Origin: Candidatus Avelusimicrobium pullarium
Lineage (GTDB): Bacteria; Elusimicrobiota; Elusimicrobia; Elusimicrobiales; Elusimicrobiaceae
Length of the DNA: 64,000 bases
Direction of reading: 5' to 3'
NCBI GenBank assembly: GCA_944323745.1
Contig: CALUTQ010000001.1
Span: forward strand, 610,863-674,862
Shown: piece by piece, positions 50,897-54,471 of the stretch
Numbering within the stretch: the stretch's first letter is position 1
Layout: every line of letters starts with the position of its first letter
Notes under the pieces: model-generated
Seen by the model: only the letters and a program-made list of their open reading frames with translations
The model's database searches: none
What the model was told of the DNA's origin: nothing
Translations under genes and position numbers: made by a program

Positions 50897-51421
50897 ATGG
50901 CTATACGAAAAATTGTAAAATACGGCGACCCTATCTTGCGCCAAAAACTCAAACATACCGATTATGAAGCCCTGCGCGAAGAATTGCCGCAGCTGATAAA
51001 AGATATGGAAGAAACCTGTCTTTCCGTACACGGGGTGGGCTTGGCGGCCAATCAAATAGGGCTGGACTATCGCCTGGCAGTCATTTTGATTCCGGAGTCG
51101 GACAAAAAAAATGCCCCGCTGAAACGTATTGTCATCATTAACCCCGAATTTGAAGATAAAAGAGGCGAGCTGGTGGAAGAAGAAGGCTGCCTTTCCCTGC
51201 CCGGCCTGTGGGTGGAAATACCCCGCGCCACGGATGTAACCGTGCGCTTTGTAGACGAACACGGCCAGCCCCGGCGTGTGCGGGCCCGCGGCCTGTTGGC
51301 CAAGGCGTTCCAGCACGAAATAGACCATTTGGACGGCAAACTTTTTATAGACTATGCCGACCCCGTTTTAAAAACGGCCATCAAAAAAGAAATCAAAAAA
51401 CTGCGCCCCACGTGGAACTGA
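50897..51421 (+). CDS. def: Peptide deformylase
   Basis: 174 residues. All three metal motifs: GVGLAANQIG, EEGCLSLPGLWVEI, and FQHEIDHLDGKLFIDY. Removes the formyl group from nascent proteins. No SD: the TATAAT lies six bases before the ATG, so the message is predicted leaderless. Confidence 0.97.
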   Translation: MAIRKIVKYGDPILRQKLKHTDYEALREELPQLIKDMEETCLSVHGVGLAANQIGLDYRLAVILIPESDKKNAPLKRIVIINPEFEDKRGELVEEEGCLSLPGLWVEIPRATDVTVRFVDEHGQPRRVRARGLLAKAFQHEIDHLDGKLFIDYADPVLKTAIKKEIKKLRPTWN

Positions 51422-52275: not shown

Positions 52276-52305
52276 TTGCGTGTAAAAATAATTTTTTATT
52301 ATACT
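52276..52305 (+). promoter_or_regulatory. Promoter of the lysine leader / lysA-lysC
   Basis: TTGCGT (52276-52281), 18-base spacer, TATACT (52300-52305). The leader-peptide ATG (52312) is at +7, so translation would start at the 5' end of the RNA. Confidence 0.55.
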
Positions 52306-52311
52306 GAGCCT

Positions 52312-52407
52312 ATGGCAAATACGTTTTTCGTTAAAAAGGCAAGCAAACAGAACAAGAGCAAAAAATGCCCTTGTGCTTTTGCTTGCAATTTGGCGGAAAC
52401 GGATTAG
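52312..52407 (+). CDS. Lysine-rich leader peptide (candidate attenuator ORF)
   Basis: 31 codons, ATG to TAG. Residues 8-18 read KKASKQNKSKK, six lysines in eleven, followed by CPCAFAC and a short acidic end. Too short for normal gene finding. It sits directly downstream of a TATACT promoter and upstream of a terminator and lysA, which is the architecture of ribosome-mediated attenuators. The three cysteines are unexplained; a small cysteine-binding peptide is the alternative. Confidence 0.6.
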   Translation: MANTFFVKKASKQNKSKKCPCAFACNLAETD

Positions 52408-52465
52408 TCCTATTTTAATAACAGACCGATTTTAAACCCCCGCTTATTGCAAGCGGGGGTTTTTT
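52339..52465 (+). promoter_or_regulatory. Candidate lysine attenuator (alternative RNA pairings)
   Basis: Segment 1 GCAAGCAAA (52339-52347, within the Lys codons) can pair with segment 2 TTTGCTTGC (52378-52386). Segment 2 region GCTTGCAA (52381-52388) can instead pair with TTGCAAGC (52447-52454), which is the loop and descending arm of the terminator. The terminator stem AAACCCCCGCTT (52434-52445) / AAGCGGGGGTTT (52451-52462), loop ATTGC, T6. A ribosome stalled at codons 15-18 would cover segment 1 and free segment 2, disrupting the terminator. lysA SD and ATG (52482) follow. Confidence 0.6.
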
Positions 52466-52481
52466 ATTGGCAGGAGAAATT

Positions 52482-53738
52482 ATGTGCTTTCGGTATGAAA
52501 ACGGAGAAATGTATGCGGAAGGTGTTTCGCTTGAAAAGCTGGCACGGGAGGTGGGCACGCCTTTTTATTGTTATTCTTACGGCAAACTGGCCGCCAATAT
52601 AGAAGCTTACCGCCGCGCGTTGGCGCCTTTTCACAGCGAGGTGTGCTATTCGGTCAAAGCCAATGCCAACTTGGCGGTGGTGTCTGCCGTGGCGGCTTTG
52701 GGCGGAGGGGCGGATGTGGTGTCGGGCGGGGAGTTGTTTTTGGCACTTAAAGCAGGCATTACGCCCGATAAAATTGTTTTTTCCGGCGTGGGCAAAACGG
52801 CCGAAGAACTGGAACAGGCCCTGCGTCATAATATACGGCAAATTAATGTAGAGTCGGCCGAAGAATTGCAGCTGCTGGCCCGGGTAGCCCAGCGCACGGG
52901 CCTGCGCGCCAATGTGGCCCTGCGCGTTAACCCGGACGTGGACGCGCTGACACACGTCAAAATTACCACCGGCAAAAAAGAAAATAAATTCGGCGTTCCC
53001 TGGCCGGAAGCGCACGAGCTCTATCACGCGGCGGCGCAAATGCCTTGTTTGCGCGTGTGCGGCATTGCGGTGCACATCGGCTCGCAGTTATTAGATTTGG
53101 AGCCTTTCCGTTTGGCCTTTACGCGCATTGCCGCTATGGTGCGCGCGCTGGAAGCAGACGGCATTCCCATAGAAAATATAGACTTGGGCGGCGGTTTGGG
53201 CATTAATTACAATGTGGAACTGCCCCCTACCTGTGAAGCTTATGCCCAGGTAGTGCAGGAAACGTTGGCCGAGCTGGATAAACATATTATTGTGGAACCG
53301 GGCCGCTCCGTGGTGGGCAATGCCGGCATTTTGGTCACGCGGGTGCTTTATACCAAACAGACGGAAGCCAAACGGTTTATTATCGTAGATGCCGGTATGA
53401 ACGATTTGATTCGGCCGGCGATGTATGATGCCTGGCACAGCATTTTGCCCGTGCAGCGCCAAGGCACCGCGCCGGTGGTGGCCGACATTGTGGGGCCCAT
53501 TTGCGAATCGGGCGATGTGTTTGCCAAAGAGCGCATTATTGAACCTGTGCAAGGGGGGCGTCTATTAGCTATAATGTGTGCTGGAGCCTATGGCGCGTCT
53601 ATGGCGTCGCAATACAATTTCCGGCCGCTTCCGGCCGAAGTAATGGTGCGCGGCAATCAGTACGCCGTGGTGCGCAAACGGCAAAGTTATCAGGAAATGT
53701 TGGAAGGACAGAGCGTGCCTTCCTGGTTAGGGGAATAA
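52482..53738 (+). CDS. lysA: Diaminopimelate decarboxylase
   Basis: Last step of lysine synthesis, PLP-dependent. 418 residues. PLP lysine in VCYSVKANANLAVV, VSGGELFLALKAG, HIGSQLLD, DLGGGLGINY, VEPGRSVVGNAG, GPICESGDVFA and CAGAYGASMASQYN. ATG 52482 preceded by AGGAGAA; an in-frame TTG at 52467 lies inside the terminator tail and is rejected. Two bases upstream of lysC. Confidence 0.96.
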   Translation: MCFRYENGEMYAEGVSLEKLAREVGTPFYCYSYGKLAANIEAYRRALAPFHSEVCYSVKANANLAVVSAVAALGGGADVVSGGELFLALKAGITPDKIVFSGVGKTAEELEQALRHNIRQINVESAEELQLLARVAQRTGLRANVALRVNPDVDALTHVKITTGKKENKFGVPWPEAHELYHAAAQMPCLRVCGIAVHIGSQLLDLEPFRLAFTRIAAMVRALEADGIPIENIDLGGGLGINYNVELPPTCEAYAQVVQETLAELDKHIIVEPGRSVVGNAGILVTRVLYTKQTEAKRFIIVDAGMNDLIRPAMYDAWHSILPVQRQGTAPVVADIVGPICESGDVFAKERIIEPVQGGRLLAIMCAGAYGASMASQYNFRPLPAEVMVRGNQYAVVRKRQSYQEMLEGQSVPSWLGE

Positions 53739-53739
53739 T

Positions 53740-54471
53740 ATGACAGCACAGATTTGTATTATGAAATTCGGCGGCAATACATTGGCCAATAAACCCAAAC
53801 TTTTAATGGCGGCCCAGTTGATTAAATCGCGCTATGATAAAGGCTTTTTGCCGGTGATTGTGGCTTCCGCCAACGGCAATTTGACGGACGTGCTTTTGGA
53901 CCACGCCTACAGCATCAGCCGCAACCCCGACAAACGCGAACTGGATATGCTTATTACCACCGGCGAACGTGTGAGCGTGGCGCTTTTGTCTATAGCGCTG
54001 CGCGATATCGGCGTGCCGTCTGTTTCCCTAACGGGCAGCCAAATCGGGCTGATTACCACGTGTGCACATACGGGGGCGGACATTCTGACGCTCAAAGGCG
54101 ACCGTCTGGTCAAAGAGCTGGAAGCAGGCCACGTGCCCGTGGTGGCGGGCTTTCAGGGAATTGGGGTAAATAAAGAAATTACCACCCTTAAACGCGGCGG
54201 GTCGGACGTGTCTGCCGTGTTTTTGGCCAGCCAGCTGGGGGCCACCCACGTGGAAATGATTAAAGACGTAGACGGCGTATACAGCGCCGACCCCAACAAA
54301 GACGTTAAAGCCCAAAAATACGAAGTGCTTGATTTTGACGAAATGTACAAACTGGCTTTAAACGGCGCCAGTGTGCTGCATCCCGATGCGGTGCGTCTGG
54401 CCAAAGAAAAGGGCATAGAAATACGCATTGTCCATTATCAAACCGGTCAGACCGGAACGGTAATTAAATAA
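53740..54471 (+). CDS. lysC: Aspartate kinase, catalytic domain only (no ACT domains)
   Basis: 243 residues, against ~400-450 for normal aspartokinases. KFGGNTLA (KFGGT-type), TTGERVSVALLSIAL, GSQIGLITT, FQGIGVNKEITTLKRGGSDVSAVFLA and KDVDGVYSADP cover the amino-acid-kinase fold; it ends at IRIVHYQTGQTGTVIK with a terminator shortly after, so the regulatory ACT pair is truly absent rather than frameshifted. Lysine feedback would then have to come from expression, matching the attenuator upstream of lysA. Confidence 0.9.
   Translation: MTAQICIMKFGGNTLANKPKLLMAAQLIKSRYDKGFLPVIVASANGNLTDVLLDHAYSISRNPDKRELDMLITTGERVSVALLSIALRDIGVPSVSLTGSQIGLITTCAHTGADILTLKGDRLVKELEAGHVPVVAGFQGIGVNKEITTLKRGGSDVSAVFLASQLGATHVEMIKDVDGVYSADPNKDVKAQKYEVLDFDEMYKLALNGASVLHPDAVRLAKEKGIEIRIVHYQTGQTGTVIK

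Follow-up and report, generated by a model that had tools for sequence, protein, structure and literature searches.

The analysed window, a stretch of 64,000 nucleotides from the genome of Candidatus Avelusimicrobium pullarium (Elusimicrobiota, family Elusimicrobiaceae), carries the lysine biosynthesis gene lysA and, upstream of it, a leader region with a short open reading frame (ORF) rich in lysine codons. A preliminary description of this DNA had read the leader as a lysine attenuator. That reading is upheld when relatives are compared, as the Lys codons, the mutually exclusive RNA pairings and the co-occurrence with lysA all hold among them, and we estimate a probability of about 0.9 that the leader acts as a classical ribosome-mediated transcription attenuator sensing charged tRNA-Lys.

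Anatomy of the lysA leader

The features of the locus are listed below.

52276-52281 and 52300-52305, forward strand: promoter-like -35 box TTGCGT and -10 box TATACT, separated by an 18-nt spacer
52312-52407, forward strand: leader-peptide ORF of 31 codons, translation MANTFFVKKASKQNKSKKCPCAFACNLAETD followed by a stop
52339-52347, forward strand: region 1, GCAAGCAAA, within the stretch of Lys codons; its partner is region 2
about 52352-52374, forward strand: inner stem of the 1:2 hairpin, with Lys codons 15-18 on its 5' side and loop
52378-52396, forward strand: region 2; 52378-52386 pairs back to region 1, while 52381-52389 and 52392-52396 pair forward to the terminator
52434-52466, forward strand: intrinsic terminator, a 12-bp stem (52434-52462) and then a U run
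52440-52454, forward strand: region 3 of the antiterminator, lying inside the terminator
52482-53738, forward strand: lysA, diaminopimelate decarboxylase (TIGR01048), with AGGAG resembling a ribosome-binding site just 5' of the ATG
53740-54471, forward strand: ask/lysC, aspartate kinase of 243 amino acids (aa) with the catalytic domain PF00696 only, co-transcribed with lysA to judge by its position

Six Lys codons lie within codons 8-18 of the leader ORF (positions 8, 9, 12, 15, 17 and 18), and the sequence agrees base for base with the 31-codon frame described earlier. The two competing pairings proposed at the same time are likewise supported, both by complementarity and by folding: pairing 1:2 joins GCAAGCAAA (52339-52347) to TTTGCTTGC (52378-52386), and pairing 2:3 joins GCTTGCAA (52381-52388) to TTGCAAGC (52447-52454). 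Regions 1 and 2 enclose the nested stem and together give a single long 1:2 hairpin with a folding energy of -20.9 kcal/mol, the corresponding value for the terminator (52434-52462) being -20.1 kcal/mol. In the antiterminator fold a further pairing is added between GGCGG (52392-52396) and positions 52440-52444 of the ascending arm of the terminator, and this capture of the ascending arm explains why GCGGA is nearly invariant in relatives. The preliminary description was right about the 12-bp terminator and only partly so in placing the whole 2:3 partner in its descending arm, as 52447-52450 belong to the loop and only 52451-52454 to that arm. Leader ORF, intrinsic terminator and lysA follow each other in this order, and the terminator is kept in relatives. 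Covariance models gave no Rfam match in the window for the lysine riboswitch (L-box, RF00168) or the T-box (RF00230).

Distribution and conservation among relatives

A covariance model (R1) built from 21 leaders was run on 90 genomes of the family beside a search for LysA. Within the genus, all 34 genomes in which the start of lysA is complete and preceded by sequence have a leader match of 63-148 bits just 5' of the gene (in G012 the match is divided between two contigs). Among the 31 genomes without lysA, none gave a leader match exceeding 38 bits; nearly all of these genomes have nonetheless kept the aspartate kinase. Outside the genus, recognisable homologues of the leader occur in G240 and G241, while G090 has a diverged leader, MLKNAKKTDSVKKGSKKTLGA, in which 7 of 21 codons are Lys and a 12-bp antiterminator can be formed, and G239 yet another diverged, Lys-rich one; in all four genomes these diverged Lys-rich leaders, with their antiterminators, stand before lysA. 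The fact that the aspartate kinase gene of G090 is located elsewhere, apart from lysA, indicates that the leader follows the lysine-specific step, and as judged by gene order it tracks lysA rather than ask. In order-level relatives outside the family, lysA lies beside a tRNA-Leu gene and has no leader.

Many matches to R1 in the range of 30-40 bits are simple terminators near unrelated genes, and those in G205, G242, G005 and G136 were inspected and rejected. A leader copy without its gene, MVSLFFVKRVSKQSKSKKRFCVPACGN, was also seen (L231, 400-640; G228:C23): a terminator is present, but lysA does not follow and no antiterminator stands out clearly. It is possibly a remnant of lysA loss, or else contamination, which amounts to 6% in this genome. 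About half of the genus is without lysA and mostly with an aspartate kinase, which suggests that in these genomes the last step of lysine synthesis has been lost and the supply of diaminopimelate kept.

For the codon analysis, 27 distinct leaders were mapped onto a tree of LysA. Lys is present at codons 12, 15, 17 and 18 in 27/27 leaders, and the ten substitutions inferred at these codons are all silent third-position changes, codons 17 and 18 alternating between AAA and AAG only; conservation of the Lys codons, which the preliminary description had proposed as a check, is thus observed. By comparison, the steps counted in codons 19-29 are 24 at first, 25 at second and 31 at third positions, and the share of third-position changes differs accordingly (10/10 versus 31/80, Fisher p = 0.0002). 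The ATG, the stop and an open frame are kept in all leaders. In leader L096 a single base inserted 3' of the Lys codons causes a +1 frameshift, by which the C-terminus of the peptide is changed and region 2 left intact. Together with the substitution pattern, this points to an upstream half of the leader that is constrained as Lys codons and a downstream half that is constrained as RNA.

The RNA pairings are conserved as well. In an alignment of 18 distinct rows, the ten pairs of the 2:3 antiterminator helix are 98.3% paired, with changes on both sides at five of them. The covariation score was matched by 0/500 shuffles, and the helix is lost when slid. Six independent both-side changes could be placed on the LysA tree, comprising three switches between G-C and A-U at one pair and one change at each of three others, and pairing of region 2 with region 3 across subgroups is mostly weaker than within a subgroup. 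The 1:2 hairpin is retained although its register shifts by 2-4 nt between subgroups; since a count in a fixed register fails for this reason, it was scored by duplex energies and synonymous-codon shuffles, which it beats in 20/21 sequences (p ≤ 0.005). Compensatory pairing in relatives, the second check proposed at the outset, is accordingly seen in 2:3, and 1:2 exceeds its shuffled controls.

Probable leaderless start, proposed mechanism and alternative explanations

The ATG of the window leader sits 6 nt 3' of the TATACT -10 box and is preceded by no Shine-Dalgarno sequence. The same spacing of 6 nt is found in nearly all leaders of relatives, and 7 nt in three, with the leader of G239 as a possible exception. 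This position suggests that the leader ORF is probably translated from a leaderless mRNA, the transcript being predicted to start at or next to the ATG. The pattern TATAMT-N6-ATG occurs 60 times in the source genome compared to 13 times in a backward control (about 4.6 times commoner), and 51 of the 60 sites start ORFs no shorter than 60 aa, which include many recognisable genes. Such an enrichment, and the ORFs opened, indicate that leaderless mRNAs are probably widespread in this lineage. An example within the window is the ORF at 50897-51421, encoding peptide deformylase (pattern at G000:C1:661747).

From this anatomy we infer the transcript start, the leaderless initiation, the stalling of the ribosome and the response to lysine. 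The transcript would begin at or next to the leader AUG, and the ribosome would load without a Shine-Dalgarno sequence. With Lys-tRNA plentiful, the ribosome would clear the Lys codons and finish the leader, either the ribosome or region 1 would keep region 2 occupied, and the terminator (52434-52462) would fold and stop transcription before lysA. With charged Lys-tRNA scarce, the ribosome would stall at one of the Lys codons 8-18 and cover region 1, and the freed region 2 could pair with the emerging region 3 (part of the ascending arm, the loop and the descending arm) before the terminator does so; once 2:3 is formed, the polymerase would continue into lysA-ask. In the absence of translation 1:2 would form, making termination the default. 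The ribosome extends about 13 nt past its A site, and assuming this footprint, region 2 (52381 onward) is left free by stalls at codons 8-18, which include the codons 15-18 for which the spacing had been proposed to be suitable. When transcription has reached 52454 and the RNA beyond the ribosome edge is left free, the antiterminator comes out in silico as the best fold for a ribosome stalled at codon 8, 12, 15 or 18.

Some observations weigh against such an attenuator. Seven genomes of the family (G235, G101, G063, G067, G070, G178 and G238) have lysA without a leader of this kind. The leaderless start is deduced from promoter spacing. When the descending arm is complete, the computed equilibrium is 94% terminator versus 6% antiterminator, even without region 1, which in this model means that the switch must act kinetically. 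Finally, Arg and Cys codons lie near the Lys codons in several leaders, with Arg at codon 9 in most and Cys at codons 19, 21 and 25 in many.

The Arg and Cys codons would agree with a leader whose translation senses general stress in amino acid supply or translation (Lys, Arg and Cys together), or with a nascent chain acting as an arrest peptide, rather than tRNA-Lys being monitored. We consider this very improbable, as only the Lys codons persist across genera: the G090 leader has neither Cys nor Arg, and those of G240 and G241 each contain one Cys and no more than one Arg. In addition, codon 21 falls within the inner stem, and its Cys is therefore accounted for by constraint on the RNA, and the frameshift in L096 replaces the C-terminal part of the peptide.

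A riboswitch-like RNA of a new class, binding lysine or another metabolite directly and containing the ORF only incidentally, would agree with a strongly conserved and well-structured leader before lysA, and with a 3' half of the ORF that is partly conserved as RNA and not as peptide. The restriction of codons 17 and 18 to AAA and AAG is a coding signature unexpected in an aptamer loop, and because of it a new lysine-binding RNA is very improbable. Against it also stand the open frame with ATG and stop in every leader, and the leader of G090, which has strongly diverged in sequence and is again Lys-rich; beyond the three-way pairing there is no compact conserved junction or loop, nor any Rfam match. 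The known lysine and tRNA sensors were rejected as controls of lysA, since neither was matched in the window, the L-box not in the phylum and the T-box not in the family: RF00168 exceeded its cut-off in 0/199 genomes of the phylum, the model being matched in four control genomes, and RF00230 was found in 0/90 genomes of the family. An ordinary constitutive terminator or an overlapping small gene before lysA, with no switch, can practically be dismissed: terminators are common and the count in a regional scan is close to chance, but this one lies on the lysA strand facing lysA, which it would silence, the competing pairings co-vary across species, and the leader co-occurs strictly with lysA.

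Pathway context and relation to known systems

The LysA protein matches TIGR01048 with 503 bits (cut-off 298), and the ask product matches PF00696 and aspartate kinase models. No ACT domain was found in this 243-aa enzyme (53740-54471), which, apart from one 22-bit match, is the only aspartokinase-like match in the genome. As the aspartate kinase lacks a recognisable feedback domain, the pathway's response to lysine may depend mainly on this leader. Most of the 90 genomes of the family contain a short aspartate kinase frame similar to that of the window. In the source genome dapA is present, while ilvB (TIGR00118) and trpE (TIGR00564) gave no match; judging from gene content, the organism is a probable auxotroph for branched-chain amino acids and tryptophan.

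Taken as a whole, this is likely to be the first lysine-specific ribosome-mediated attenuator, in which a putatively leaderless Lys leader peptide would control lysA throughout the main genus of Elusimicrobiaceae, and there also the sole, ACT-less aspartokinase, in a lineage where no L-box or T-box was found. The view of the preliminary description that leader-peptide attenuation of lysA is undescribed stands as far as open-licence papers are concerned, in which no published case of a lysine leader-peptide attenuator was found; the subscription literature was outside this scope, and an earlier mention there is possible. An attenuator of this kind would add lysine to the amino acids under attenuation control, where it has been missing, would be the first evidence known to us of coupled transcription-translation control in Elusimicrobiota, and would show that attenuation can operate through a leader ORF that is probably leaderless. 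In these gut bacteria lysine synthesis would, it appears, switch on only when charged Lys-tRNA runs short.

Two kinds of RNA element, the L-box riboswitch and T-boxes, are known to control lysine genes. Like the lysA leader, the L-box acts on lysine biosynthesis genes via premature termination, but does so as a directly ligand-binding RNA with no ORF; the T-box likewise couples tRNA aminoacylation to a terminator, but binds the uncharged tRNA directly and requires no leader translation. Other candidate leader peptides lie, as here, close to genes connected with aspartate or lysine. One is SEP5 of Sinorhizobium meliloti, a small leader ORF upstream of aspartate dehydrogenase that contains six Thr codons and three Lys codons (PMC10117765); another, the lysQ leader, comes from Lactococcus lactis and is described as histidyl-tRNA dependent (PMC4833913). 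With mainly Thr codons in the former and histidyl-tRNA dependence in the latter, neither is a lysine attenuator of lysA. For Actinobacteria, a comparative survey reported no leader peptide for lysine, nor did it report any conservation of RNA structure before the lysine operons (PMC1262725), and within Elusimicrobiota the his genes of E. minutum are described as controlled by HisR (PMC9413887). The trpL leader of S. meliloti (rnTrpL; PMC10117765, PMC7298713), a leaderless attenuator leader before a biosynthetic gene, has its ORF at the 5' end of the transcript, as is predicted for the lysA leader, and differs in its Trp codons, its length of 14 aa and its occurrence in Alphaproteobacteria; its peptide and small RNA have trans roles in that species. 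Closest in design are the classical attenuators of the Yanofsky type (trp, his, thr, ilv, leu and phe), which, like the lysA leader, combine a short ORF enriched in codons for the pathway product with three RNA segments whose pairings exclude each other and with an intrinsic terminator ahead of the first structural gene. The lysA leader departs from them in its presumed specificity for lysine, in an antiterminator that takes both arms of the terminator, in its occurrence in Elusimicrobiota and in its probably leaderless translation. While attenuators of this kind are well known, what is new here is the presumed specificity for lysine, the lineage and the putative leaderless start.
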